DNA from: an uncultured Agathobaculum sp.
GTDB taxonomy: Bacteria; Bacillota; Clostridia; Oscillospirales; Butyricicoccaceae
Length of the DNA stretch: 40,687 nt
Assembly (NCBI RefSeq): GCF_944384735.1
Contig: NZ_CALWUN010000016.1
Location: forward strand, 1 to 40,687
Direction: 5' to 3'
Positions 2,967-40,687 of the stretch are shown in pieces. The translations under genes and the position numbers were made by a program. Positions within the stretch are counted from its first letter, which is position 1; each line of letters opens with the position of its first letter. The notes under the pieces are model-generated. The model saw only the letters and a program-made list of their open reading frames with translations, was not told the origin of the DNA and did no database searches.

Positions 2967-2995
2967 TGGCGGAGAGTCAGGGATTTGAACCCTGG
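2967..2995 (-). other. Probable attachment site in tRNA-Ser 3' end
   Basis: Integrases next to a tRNA 3' end normally use the T-arm/acceptor segment as the att core and rebuild the tRNA on integration. The intact tRNA here, with the integrase 107 bp away, makes 2967-2995 the expected core. The second copy should lie left of position 1 and cannot be seen. Confidence 0.5.
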
Positions 2996-3057
2996 AGACG
3001 CTCATCACGCCTACACGATTTCCAATCGTGCGCCTTCGACCACTCAGCCAACTCTCC
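2967..3057 (-). tRNA. tRNA-Ser (anticodon GGA)
   Basis: The minus strand folds as a class II tRNA. The acceptor stem is GGAGAGT/ACTCTCC with discriminator G and an encoded CCA (2967-2969). The anticodon loop TTGGAAA gives anticodon GGA, reading UCC/UCU. A long variable arm, as expected for serine, and a T-arm with GGTTCAAATCC are present. The 3' end faces the integrase. Confidence 0.97.
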
Positions 3058-17614: not shown

Positions 17615-17639
17615 AAGCGCCCGCTTCGGCGGGCGCTTT
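17615..17639 (+). terminator. Left copy of duplicated terminator hairpin (repeat copy 1)
   Basis: A 10-bp stem with TTCG tetraloop (17615-17624 with 17629-17638), directly followed by the repeat element instead of a T-run. The same 25 bases recur exactly at 17801-17825 on the other side of the element. Confidence 0.8.
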
Positions 17640-17800
17640 AGGCTGTCAAAAAACATAGTTTTCGACAGCCTCTCGATTGGAACCACGCTTCCGATCGAAT
17701 CAAATGTATCAAAAAATCGGGCAAAGCTCGCTTTTTTGATGCCGCTCACAGAGCGGCTGAACAATGCGCGCTACGGCGCGAGGACTTTATCGACAGACTG
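17640..17800 (+). mobile_element. Terminator-associated dispersed element, copy 1 (short form)
   Basis: 161 bp with no ORF of note. The left end forms an imperfect hairpin (one G-to-A change against copy 2). Next come a GATCG-containing stem, a poly-A/poly-T stem (ATCAAAAAA with TTTTTTGAT), and the stem GCCGCTC-ACA-GAGCGGC. It ends in ATCGACAGACTG. The left and right termini are imperfect inverted repeats (CTGTC[A/G]AAAA and CTGTCGATAA). Relative to copies 2 and 3 it lacks two internal blocks of about 45 bp each. It is flanked on both sides by the same 25-bp terminator hairpin. With the downstream promoter it explains the 17611-17963 gap. Confidence 0.8.
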
Positions 17801-17832
17801 AAGCGCCCGCTTCGGCGGGCGCTTTCCCTTTT
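17801..17832 (+). terminator. Right copy of duplicated terminator hairpin (repeat copy 1)
   Basis: Exact copy of 17615-17639, here followed by CCC and a T-run, so this copy is the working terminator. Confidence 0.8.
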
Positions 17833-23066: not shown

Positions 23067-24848
23067 ATGCGGTGCGGCATGCGGACGGACGGACGCGGCA
23101 GACAGATTTGGAAAAATATCTTTGACCTGCTGGACAGGCGGCATAAGCGGCGGTTTTTGTGGATTGCGGTCATTTTAGCCGTGTCCGCGGTGCTCAGCCA
23201 GCTGACCCCGCTGGCCGTCGGCTACCTGACCGACCATGTGCTGGCCGGCGGGCGCACGGATTTCCTGTCCGTCGTGCCGATCTTGCTGGTCATCCTGGTC
23301 GTCAATGTGGTCAACGAGGTGATCAAGGTCGTGCGGCGGCTGATGGTCGAGGACACGGCCACGCAGGCCGAAAAAAGCGCGCGCGGCCGCGCGACCGCGT
23401 CGCTGCTGCACGCGCCGCTGTCCTATTTCCGCGCGCACATGACCGGCAACATCCACGGACGGCTCAACCGCAGCCTGGAGGGCACGGTCAAGCTGGTCAA
23501 GCTGCTGTTTATGGACTTTGCGCCCGCCGTCACCACCGGCGTCGCCGCTATCGTGACCATTTTCGTGCAACTGCCCGCGCCGGTCGCGGCGCTGGTCATC
23601 CTGGTCATCCCGGTCGGCACGTTCATCGTGCTGCGCCAGATCGGCACGCAAAAGGGCATCCGCGTCGAGCTGATGGAGACCAAGGCCGACATGGACGGCA
23701 CGATGGTCGAGCTGCTCGGCGGCATCGAGACCATCCGCGCGCTCGACAGCGCGCAGGCCGAAAGCGACCGCATCGGCGTGCGCTCCGAGCAGCTGCGCCG
23801 CAAGGAAATGCGCCACCACAAGGCGATGGCGCTGTACGACTGCCTGAAATTCGTCAACGAAGCATTTTTCAGCGTGCTGGTCATCGGACTGTCCGTGCTG
23901 CTGGCCGCAAACGGGGTCATTACGGTCGGCACCGTGCTGACCGCCTACCTGTGCTTCACCCAGCTGACCGGCCCGCTGCGCGAGCTGCACCGCATCCTCG
24001 ACGAATTTTCCGAGTGCGTCGCGCTGGCCGACGACTATTTCCGCATGATCGCGCTGCCGCTCGACTTTTCCTATCAGCAGCCGCTGGACAGGTCGGACGC
24101 GCGGCCGGTCTCCAACGATGTGCAGGTGTGCAGCGTGCGCTTCCACTACCCGGAAAAGCCCGACCGCCCCATCCTGCGCGATATCGACCTGACCATCCCG
24201 GCGGGGCGGTTCATTGGCATCGCCGGGCCGAGCGGCTGCGGCAAGTCGTCGCTCATCAAAGTGCTCGACAAGCTCGAGCAGGCGGCGGGCGAGGTGCGCA
24301 TCGGCGGCGCGCCGCTCGAGCTGCTGTCCCGCGCGACGCTGGCCGAATATGTCGCGCTCGTGCCGCAGACGCCTTTCCTGATCGCAGACACGGTGTTCCA
24401 CAACATCTGCTACGGCCTGCGGCGCGAGGTCACGCTCGACGAGGTGTGCGAGGCCGCACGCAAGGCTAACATTGCCGCCGACATCGAGGCCATGCCGCAG
24501 GGGTACGACACCCCGCTGTCCGAGGGCGGCGCCAACCTGTCGGGCGGGCAGCGGCAGCGCATCGCGCTGGCGCGCATTTTCCTGAAAAAGCCGCGCGTGC
24601 TCATCCTCGATGAGGCGACCTCGGCGCTCGACAACACCTCGGAAAAGCATGTGCAGGCCGAGATCGAGCGCATGATGCGCGATTACGGCACGACGGTCAT
24701 CTCCATCGCCCACCGGCTGACCACGCTGCAAAACTGCGATGAAATCCTTGTGATGGCGCAGGGCGAGATCGTGCAGCGCGGCAGCTACCAGACGCTGCTG
24801 GATACGCCGGGTATTTTCCGGGACATGGCGCAGGGCGTGCTGAAATAA
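23067..24848 (+). CDS. ABC transporter, fused permease and ATPase (exporter type)
   Basis: A 593-residue half-transporter that would work as a homodimer. The N-terminal ~325 residues have six membrane helices (the first near 30-50, IAVILAVSAVLSQLTPLAVGYL). The ATPase follows: Walker A GPSGCGKSS (about 386-394), Q-loop LVPQTPF, signature LSGGQRQRIALARIF (about 491-505), Walker B VLILDEATSALD (about 511-522) and H-loop SIAHR (about 548). It is full length. The substrate cannot be told; relatives export lipids, peptides or drugs. The start is uncertain: GAAGGG lies directly before ATG 23067 and 12 nt before an in-frame ATG at 23079. It stands alone, with its terminator split by repeat copy 2. 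Confidence 0.92.
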   Translation: MRCGMRTDGRGRQIWKNIFDLLDRRHKRRFLWIAVILAVSAVLSQLTPLAVGYLTDHVLAGGRTDFLSVVPILLVILVVNVVNEVIKVVRRLMVEDTATQAEKSARGRATASLLHAPLSYFRAHMTGNIHGRLNRSLEGTVKLVKLLFMDFAPAVTTGVAAIVTIFVQLPAPVAALVILVIPVGTFIVLRQIGTQKGIRVELMETKADMDGTMVELLGGIETIRALDSAQAESDRIGVRSEQLRRKEMRHHKAMALYDCLKFVNEAFFSVLVIGLSVLLAANGVITVGTVLTAYLCFTQLTGPLRELHRILDEFSECVALADDYFRMIALPLDFSYQQPLDRSDARPVSNDVQVCSVRFHYPEKPDRPILRDIDLTIPAGRFIGIAGPSGCGKSSLIKVLDKLEQAAGEVRIGGAPLELLSRATLAEYVALVPQTPFLIADTVFHNICYGLRREVTLDEVCEAARKANIAADIEAMPQGYDTPLSEGGANLSGGQRQRIALARIFLKKPRVLILDEATSALDNTSEKHVQAEIERMMRDYGTTVISIAHRLTTLQNCDEILVMAQGEIVQRGSYQTLLDTPGIFRDMAQGVLK

Positions 24849-24860
24849 GAAAAACGGCAA

Positions 24861-24888
24861 AAACCCGGTGCAGCTTGGCTGCACCGGG
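24861..24888 (+). terminator. Left copy of duplicated terminator hairpin (repeat copy 2)
   Basis: A 10-bp stem (24864-24873 with 24879-24888) with no T-run after it. The same 28 bases with one loop change recur at 25148-25175. Confidence 0.8.
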
Positions 24889-24892
24889 GGTG

Positions 24893-25147
24893 AGGCTGTC
24901 GAAAAACATAGTTTTCGACAGCCTCTCGATCGAACCACGCTTCCGATCGAATTAAATGTATCAAAAAAGCGGGCACGGCCCAGGCCGCCTTCTCTTGGCC
25001 TGCGGCCAATTCACCTTGAAGCTCGCTTTTTTGATGCCGCTCACAGAGCGGCTGAACAATGCGCGACACGCATTTCATCGCCGCACAGCGGCGGAATGTG
25101 GTTTCGCGGGCTACGGCCTGCGGCGCGAGAACTTTATCGACAAGCTG
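24893..25147 (+). mobile_element. Terminator-associated dispersed element, copy 2 (full form)
   Basis: 255 bp. The left-end hairpin is perfect: 24893-24905 with 24912-24924, 13 bp. Next is a TCGATCG stem (24926-24932 with 24944-24950). A long-range stem ATCAAAAAAGCG (24960-24971) pairs with 25024-25035 and encloses a GGCC-rich block. Then come GCCGCTC-ACA-GAGCGGC and a CGCCGCACAGCGGCG hairpin. The right end is ATCGACAAGCTG. It differs from copy 3 at about eight positions over 241 shared bases. A 94-codon open frame crosses it but runs on into host sequence and is absent from copy 1. The same terminator hairpin flanks it on both sides. It fills the 24849-25194 gap between convergent genes. Confidence 0.85.
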
Positions 25148-25180
25148 AAACCCGGTGCAGTTTGGCTGCACCGGGTTTTT
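25148..25180 (+). terminator. Right copy of duplicated terminator hairpin (repeat copy 2)
   Basis: Stem as in 24861-24888, here preceded by AAA and followed by TTTTT, so it can terminate the plus-strand transcript and, less well, the convergent minus-strand gene. Confidence 0.85.
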
Positions 25181-25194
25181 CATGCTCTTTGCTG

Positions 25195-25800
25195 TTATGC
25201 GGTCACGCCGACGGTGGCAGGCACCTCGACCTGCTCATAGACGATGCTGATGATCGACAGCACGACCAGCGCGGTCGCGCGGCAGATATTGATCAGGTCG
25301 TCGTTAATGCCGTGGCGGCGGCCCGGCGCGCGGTAGGCGTTGTGCATCGACGTGATGCGCGCAATCAGCGCGTCCACCGTGACCGGCGGGATGATCGGGC
25401 TGGCCCACTGTTCAAAGCGCGCCTCGGTCATGCGGCGGCGGATGACAAGCGCCACGCGCTTTTCATACACATAGTGCGCCAGCAGGTTGCGCTCATAAAT
25501 ATCGTCGTTGTGCGGATAGGTGAAAAAGTCCGTGATGTAATGGCAGATCTCGCCCAGATCGACCGACAGTTCCCGTCCGTTGACCGGGCCGATGGTATAT
25601 TTCTCGGTGAAAACACGGATCTTTTCCATTACTTCGTCCATCATAATGGACGGGTTATGCCGCTTGGTCAAATAAGTGCCGGTCAGGTCGGGCTTGAGGT
25701 TACCGTACACAAAGCCGCCCTGATCGAACGTAACGCCGCACACCTGCTCGACATAATCCATCAACAGGTTGGCAACGCGAATATGAGAAACCGAATCCAT
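25195..25800 (-). CDS. Zinc-dependent phospholipase C-like family protein
   Basis: A 201-residue protein. SVSHIRVANLLMDYV near the N-terminus, YGNLKPDLTGTY (about 34-45) and LGEICHYITDFFTYPHNDD (about 85-103) match the zinc-dependent phospholipase C fold, in which His and Asp residues of these segments bind zinc. There is no signal peptide, unlike secreted toxins of the family, so it is probably an intracellular member of unknown substrate. The start is set at ATG 25800 because GGAGGA lies 6 nt upstream; a TTG two codons earlier has no room for it. Strong promoter upstream; it converges on the ABC exporter. Confidence 0.78.
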   Translation of the reverse strand: MDSVSHIRVANLLMDYVEQVCGVTFDQGGFVYGNLKPDLTGTYLTKRHNPSIMMDEVMEKIRVFTEKYTIGPVNGRELSVDLGEICHYITDFFTYPHNDDIYERNLLAHYVYEKRVALVIRRRMTEARFEQWASPIIPPVTVDALIARITSMHNAYRAPGRRHGINDDLINICRATALVVLSIISIVYEQVEVPATVGVTA

Positions 25801-40418: not shown

Positions 40419-40446
40419 AAAAAGCAGCGTGCCAGGCACGCTGCTT
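40419..40446 (-). terminator. Terminator hairpin at the right end of repeat copy 3
   Basis: A hairpin of arms 40422-40433 and 40435-40446, followed on the minus strand by five T residues (complement of 40419-40423). It would end a minus-strand transcript entering from beyond 40687. By analogy with the other copies a second hairpin of the same sequence is expected just outside the window. Confidence 0.8.
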
Positions 40447-40687
40447 CAGTCTGTCGATAAAGTCCTCGCGCCGCAGGCCGTAGCCCGCGAAACCACATTC
40501 CGCCGCTGTGCGGCGATAAAATGCGTGTCGCGCATTGTTCAGACGCTCTGTGAGCGGCATCAAAAAAGCGAGCTTCAAGGTGAATTGGCCGCAGGCCAAG
40601 AGAAGGCGGTCTGGGCCGTGCCCGCTTTTTTGATACATTTGATTCGATCGGAAGCGTGGTTCCGATCGAGAGGCTGTCGAAAACTAT
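40447..40687 (-). mobile_element. Terminator-associated dispersed element, copy 3 (cut by window end)
   Basis: 241 bp, inverted relative to copies 1 and 2 and about 97% identical to copy 2. It has the same ordered stem-loops, including a perfect 10-bp TCGATCGGAA/TTCCGATCGA stem. It abuts the terminator at 40446 with the same CTG/AA junction as the other copies. About 15 bp of its left end lie outside the window, so the full length should be near 256 bp. No gene is seen in 40330-40687. Confidence 0.85.

Follow-up and report, generated by a model that had tools for sequence, protein, structure and literature searches.

The stretch of DNA analysed here, called the window throughout (40,687 nucleotides), belongs to a MAG of the gut-bacterial genus Agathobaculum of 2.06 Mb in 94 contigs, 83% complete, which we refer to as the home genome. 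A tRNA-Ser(GGA) at 2967-3057 (minus strand) is the sole ARAGORN match in the window and, at gathering scores, also its sole Rfam match. Three related sequences are present, as the preliminary description had reported, and a 20-base probe from their left-end hairpin finds exactly those three places, with no match in 100 shuffles of the window. Copy 1 occupies 17639..17800 on the plus strand (162 bp, with T and not G as its end base) and is bordered by a terminator hairpin on the left (17615..17638, plus strand, AAGCGCCCGCTTCGGCGGGCGCTT) and by a second one on the right (17801..17824, plus strand) that is identical to it over 24 bp in the hairpin-pair comparison. Copy 2, at 24892..25147 (plus strand), is a long version of 256 bp with extra stretches in two hairpin loops, recognized as modules by comparison with other copies. 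It begins with the left-end hairpin H1 (24892..24925, plus strand), formed by the terminal repeat GAGGCTGTCGAAAAAC and its inverted copy and covarying in other copies, and it ends with the right terminal repeat CTTTATCGACAAGCTG (25132..25147, plus strand; reverse complement CAGCTTGTCGATAAAG), whose family form is compared with IS1182 ends below. The hairpin to its left, at 24864..24888 (plus strand), is followed by GGT, versus TTT after the hairpin to its right, which lies with its A and T flanks at 25148..25178 (plus strand) and is single in two sister species. The two hairpins (24864-24888 and 25151-25175) agree at 24 of 25 bases, reading CCCGGTGCAG(C/T)TTGGCTGCACCGGG on either side. Copy 3 (40447..40687, minus strand) is interrupted by the contig end; a hairpin adjoins its right end at 40422..40446 (minus strand), and the flank comparison places the partner of this hairpin on contig C30 (L029). 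C30 seems to end in the missing left half of copy 3, next to the same hairpin as at window 40422-40446.

This arrangement is the rule, in that copies of the element typically lie between two copies of one terminator hairpin, a different hairpin at each locus. The preliminary description had placed the element inside intrinsic terminators. The association with terminators stands, but not the position inside a single one, since the element lies between two whole hairpin copies and its left end adjoins the second, which had been overlooked. The duplication of the flanking hairpin is the key feature of the element. The reported joining of right ends to the terminator hairpin through a shared CTG junction is seen as ...CTG|A. 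A constant orientation relative to the T-run is not general: among 82 duplicated hairpins, 35 are preceded by an A-run and followed by a T-run, 18 have an A-run only, 7 a T-run only and 22 neither, such that 60 of the 82 pairs have at least one outer run.

We collected by script 148 distinct left ends from the retrieved loci, 31 of them in the home genome and a few of them misoriented or foreign reads (e.g., L067, L083). A lax hairpin test was positive at 435 of 1000 random window positions, two of these with a downstream copy; we thus added a strict test, requiring at least eight uninterrupted Watson-Crick pairs with an edge within three bases. By this test a hairpin adjoins 101 of the 148 left ends (26 of 31 in the home genome), compared with 23 of 5000 random window positions, both random controls being drawn from the whole window rather than from intergenic sites. 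Because the ends of genes are richer in terminators than random positions are, duplication is a better test than hairpin presence. A left end counted as scorable if it had a hairpin by the lax test and sufficient sequence downstream (n = 119); in 77 of these the hairpin recurs, with at least 85% identity, at a distance of 60-420 bases downstream, in direct orientation in 71 and inverted in 6. When each hairpin was set against the downstream stretch of other loci, none of 356 comparisons gave a match. For the home genome, the same threshold yields a downstream copy for 21 of the 31 left ends.

In 70 direct pairs, the exact repeat measures 18-42 bp and ends at the hairpin edges, with a median excess over the hairpin of 0. 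The correlation of 0.95 between hairpin length and repeat length is partly built in, because only repeats containing the hairpin were counted; what is informative is that the repeat goes no further than the hairpin feet. In A. desmolans, A. butyriciproducens and two others (G022, G008, G004 and G011), a perfect repeat of 23-39 bp adjoins GAG... on the left and the element end on the right in 13 of 45 left-end matches; 17 of the 45 have no exact repeat of at least 11 bases, and the remainder have shorter or displaced repeats. A script listing of hairpin pairs returned 57 pairs, two of them spurious; the pairs of 1031 and 2822 bp, considered as long copies, join internal hairpins of neighbouring copies and were discarded.

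The flanks are not random, nor are the copies parts of one larger transposon, though a minority lacks the pattern. Among the ten home-genome exceptions, L008 lies at a contig end, with its partner hairpin on C55, and in L006, L011, L027, L028 and L034 the right-hand hairpin looks decayed (best identity 0.61-0.83), leaving as real exceptions L009, without a right copy, L022 and L026, with different hairpins, and L039. Over all scorable copies the hairpin was not found again at 85% in 42 of 119, some of which could be hairpin replacements, and even the lax test finds no hairpin at 13 of the 148 left ends (e.g., L076, L077, L079, L108, L169); several off-rule copies belong to A. desmolans (e.g., L076, L077, L079, L108). 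A palindrome, GATAGGGGGTAT...ATACCCCCTATC, recurs beside the element at L026, L039 and L084, and may be another small palindromic repeat. At L037, on home-genome contig C54, the remains of another element, a hairpin, the element and a hairpin follow in tandem, which suggests repeated insertion at one terminator.

Sought in relatives, the site of copy 2 proved empty, with one hairpin, in two sister species (G023 and G019). In this search, which compared window 24300-25800 with 17 genomes of the same genus, the left flank matches G023 at 80249-80826 and the right flank at 80800-81446, the overlap being one hairpin; the empty site reads ...CTGAAATAGAAAAAACCGGTGCAGCCAAGCTGCACCGGTTTG..., that is, one terminator versus the window's terminator-element-terminator. 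G019 has one imperfect hairpin and no element at this site. Copy 2 provides the only two-sided empty site. At the sites of copy 1 and L002, one flank is conserved in relatives and the other junction is not alignable, with a single hairpin after the orthologous gene in G006, G015 and G018 for copy 1 and, by eye, in six of seven genomes for L002.

The loop of the G023 hairpin (L305) has the opposite sense to window 24864-24888, showing that terminator loops can flip in the genus without insertion, which gives a simple account of the minority of inverted duplicates. Loops also appear inverted between orthologous or duplicated hairpins at L002, L114, L122 and L260, as if hairpins flipped during replication or repair. 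The duplicated hairpins are also of practical use: for three copies split by contig ends, the hairpins on the two contigs concerned match (C82/C55, C66/C42 and C30/C16), and in draft assemblies such hairpins show which broken contigs belong together.

With copy 2 as query, the home genome gave 98 matching pieces in about 40 places. The element is mostly 160-270 bp long, and true end pairs span 155-368 bp. A 167-base query from copy 1 matched, in full or in part and at an E value of 0.001 or better, 19 of 24 relatives of the same genus (20 of 25 with the home genome), and outside the genus 1 of 35 genomes, weakly. A query of the G011 type found 50 pieces in about 40 places in genome G024. Across one genome per species of 84,980 species, a degenerate pattern of the H2 region, which is blind to versions without that region, retrieved 62 stretches, all in Agathobaculum.

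The left end of the element, GAG[AG]CTGTCGAAAAAC, is directly folded back as H1, and further hairpins follow up to the right end, CTTTATCGACA[AG][AG]CTG. Read on the opposite strand, the right end becomes CAG[TC][CT]TGTCGATAAAGTCC, which repeats the left end imperfectly, in agreement with the imperfect terminal inverted repeats noted before. The interior is modular, stretches of about 43 and 52 bases being present or absent in the loops of the element's own hairpins (L005, L002, L010, L173). For 16 chosen copies RNAalifold predicted 53 pairs, 22 with double-sided compensatory changes, against only 5 of 48 pairs with double changes in a second set of 15, dominated by copies of the home type. 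In the 16-copy set, 97.4% of cells are paired versus 88.0% in shuffles, and 73 cells have double changes versus 21.2 in shuffles, a count that none of 500 shuffles attained; for further pair types, 24 of 500 shuffles attained the observed number. Sliding the partners by 1-3 columns lowered pairing to 28-54%, a control that leans towards structure because the structure was derived from the same sequences. Hairpin flipping could itself be a source of some paired changes.

The preliminary description had named elements that target REP palindromes as its comparison; the closest relatives found are IS1182-family elements. We searched for IS1182 transposases with the NF033551 profile. In G048, a genome of the same order and another family, locus L242/L260 encodes a full-length transposase (NF033551, 385 bits, over the family cut-off; domains PF13751, PF01609 and PF05598), in an element that has the ends CAGACTGTCGAAAAACTTC and CAGACTGTCGAAGAACCCC and is flanked on each side by a 32-bp hairpin, one of the two copies having its loop inverted. 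Used as query, this transposase found matches in 47 of 295 genomes of the order. Among 39 IS1182 loci scanned, 22 contain the end motif and 17 have no motif match. Ends were compared in 22 loci, chosen because the motif had already been seen there (20 motif loci, two duplicates being excluded, plus L245 and L239). They contain 38 end-motif matches, at least one of which is a chance match inside a gene, and 32 of the 38 adjoin a hairpin. These matches differ from the right end of the short element by 1-9 mismatches in 19 and from its left end by 2-6 in 16; in the best case the right end CAGTCTGTCGATAAAGTCC and an IS end of G070, CAGTCTGTCGAAAAAGTCC, differ at one position in 19. A 19-mer background, drawn from loci that hold real ends, gave no clean null and was left unused.

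Both ends are present in 15 IS elements of 751-1571 bp, mostly near 1.5 kb, and 10 of them have the same hairpin on both sides. Nine of these are direct duplications, or undecidable in the case of the perfect palindrome of L281 (L262, L263, L264, L266, L281 and L289-L292), and in L260 the loop is inverted. Two elements have different hairpins on the two sides (L267, L279) and three have no called hairpin on one side (L265, L269, L294). In genome G226, four of five copies of one 1526-bp IS element show direct hairpin duplication. We re-inspected 9 of the 17 motif-less loci (L261, L268 and L271-L277). L261, with a transposase 74% identical, has the ends CAGTTTGTCAAAAAA and lies between two copies of one hairpin, and at L268 the two hairpins differ, which brings the same-hairpin count to 11 of 17; in the distant loci L271-L277 (30-39% identity) duplication was found in none of seven. 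Hairpin duplication is thus not general in IS1182, and in another set of seven loci the repeat occurred at L242 only. Transposase-bearing IS1182 relatives of one subgroup thus behave as the short element does.

Neither the home genome nor any of the 24 further Agathobaculum genomes searched with NF033551 yielded an intact IS1182 transposase with the ends of the short element. In the home genome, IS1182 matches are confined to weak ones at contig edges, with none to the L242 transposase, an absence that is weak evidence because the MAG is 83% complete. In G008, full-length IS1182 transposases have other ends, one sharing only the CTGTCG core, and in G024 a contig-edge IS1182 fragment has the end CAGACTGTCAAAGAACC beside a hairpin. 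The first base also differs, being G at the left end of the short element versus C in nearly all IS ends. Left- and right-end patterns revealed no autonomous copy with its own transposase in five genomes and the retrieved loci. One candidate, L123 (986 bp, in G011), is a copy of the short element with a nested IS200. This IS200-type element (TnpA, PF01797) lies directly 3′ to a terminator hairpin in the majority of the seven copies read (L195, L201, L204, L206, L208, L210) and once inside the short element (L123/L210); it may also prefer terminators. At L104, in G022, a copy of the short element appears to be interrupted by a transposase gene, putatively of the IS256 family by eye.

The preliminary proposal, a non-autonomous mobile element directed at terminators, is supported by its occurrence in about 40 places of the genome, by the hairpins at its ends and their duplication, by the hairpin-only empty site in two sister species and by ends that match a transposase-bearing IS family. 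Given that IS1182 transposons of the same order share both the ends and the hairpin duplication, we consider it very likely that the element is an IS1182-type MITE, in which the terminal repeats of an IS1182-family DDE transposon surround a chain of hairpins without a transposase, and which inserts at hairpins and duplicates the whole hairpin by means of an IS1182 transposase acting in trans.

Three other explanations were weighed against this one. Long repeats could arise from a fixed long stagger combined with a mere preference for terminators, and the IS1202 subgroup indeed makes unusually long target duplications (16-28 bp), with no target identified for them (PMC10132070). The MITE resembles that subgroup in this respect and differs from it in transposase family; its direct repeats range over 18-42 bp and end at hairpin edges, and its terminal repeats match IS1182 elements, the IS1202 subgroup being set apart here on its literature description. 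We regard such a stagger as very unlikely. Still less probable, in our estimate, is a stationary structured 3′-UTR RNA module whose flanking hairpins arose by tandem duplication or recombination, without transposition. The internal covariation of the 16-copy set is what one might cite for it, although the set of mostly home-type copies shows far less. Against it stand flanking hairpins that vary by locus while the ends are shared (no match among the swapped pairs), an empty site with one hairpin in two species, transposase-bearing elements with the same ends and flank structure, and the lack of any Rfam match at gathering score in the window apart from the tRNA. What remains of the 3′-UTR module of the preliminary description is the covariation, in one set of copies, and such a role is possible as a by-product of the mobile element.

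We give the least credence to mobilisation by a hairpin-handling IS200/IS605 or REP-type Y1 transposase. The 986-bp copy in G011 does hold an IS200 tnpA, and IS200 copies in that genome also lie beside terminators; this IS200 is, however, an independent nested element with its own boundaries, found in seven places, and G008, rich in MITE copies, has no match to the G011 TnpA in a search that covers relatives of that one protein. To our knowledge, flank duplication is not expected of the Y1 mechanism either, and we count this against it.

For the IS1182-type MITE, the following course of insertion can be proposed. An IS1182 transposase, acting in trans, would recognise the extruded terminator, as a cruciform or four-way junction, by its shape. 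Each foot of the hairpin would receive one 3′ end of the element, the two being joined to opposite strands, at target phosphates that are distant along the sequence yet would lie near each other at the junction. Repair of the gaps would then copy the hairpin on each side, and the length of the target duplication would thus depend on the hairpin rather than on a fixed stagger. The usual target duplication of DDE transposons is short and of fixed length, while the duplicated unit here is a whole secondary structure of variable size. On balance, we lean towards the view that a DDE transposase measures its target duplication by structure, at the four-way junction of the extruded terminator, duplicating a hairpin of any size from foot to foot, and that a MITE family with covarying hairpins has in this way spread through the terminators of the genus, with dozens of copies per genome, each placing a second terminator beside the first. 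This would be natural evidence for hairpin extrusion in chromosomes, seen by an enzyme. Since the outer A-run to the left of the left hairpin and the outer T-run to the right of the right hairpin remain, each neighbour could still be faced by a terminator, and the insertion would then do almost no harm. The pattern suggests a parasite that fills a compact genome at little cost, entering terminators and leaving a terminator copy on each side.

Group IIC introns and the REP-targeting IS1397 and IS621 also prefer terminators or palindromes; as far as we know, they use different enzymes and do not duplicate a whole hairpin. ISfinder gives very variable repeat lengths for IS1182, so that isolated cases may already be familiar to specialists. 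Both the targeting of hairpins by IS1182 and an IS1182-type MITE have been published; among the listed matches in the open-access literature, we recognised no report of whole-hairpin duplication as a regular outcome for an IS1182 MITE, nor of the Agathobaculum repeat. The MITE in print, MITEPye1 of Paracoccus yeei (PMC11578231), is likewise non-autonomous, intergenic and foldable, with IS1182-like terminal repeats. Unlike the element described here, it has 4-bp direct repeats and 1-3 copies per chromosome, and the available part of that report does not mention hairpin duplication. IS1272 of staphylococci and TnSha1 share with our element the IS1182 DDE family and targets that are inverted repeats or terminator hairpins without a common sequence (PMC5678879, PMC4923244). 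New insertions of IS1272 replaced the hairpin (PMC5678879), and TnSha1/IS1272 were found within hairpins, including several terminators, with part of the hairpin deleted (PMC4923244); neither IS1272 nor TnSha1 duplicated its target. Such replacement is not the pattern found here, the hairpin being present on both sides in 77 of 119 copies: what is seen is a short passenger element with the target hairpin duplicated in full. The hairpin-duplicating route, "pathway b," with which the elements described here agree, is drawn only as a model in PMC5678879, and the Agathobaculum element would provide dozens of natural cases of it.
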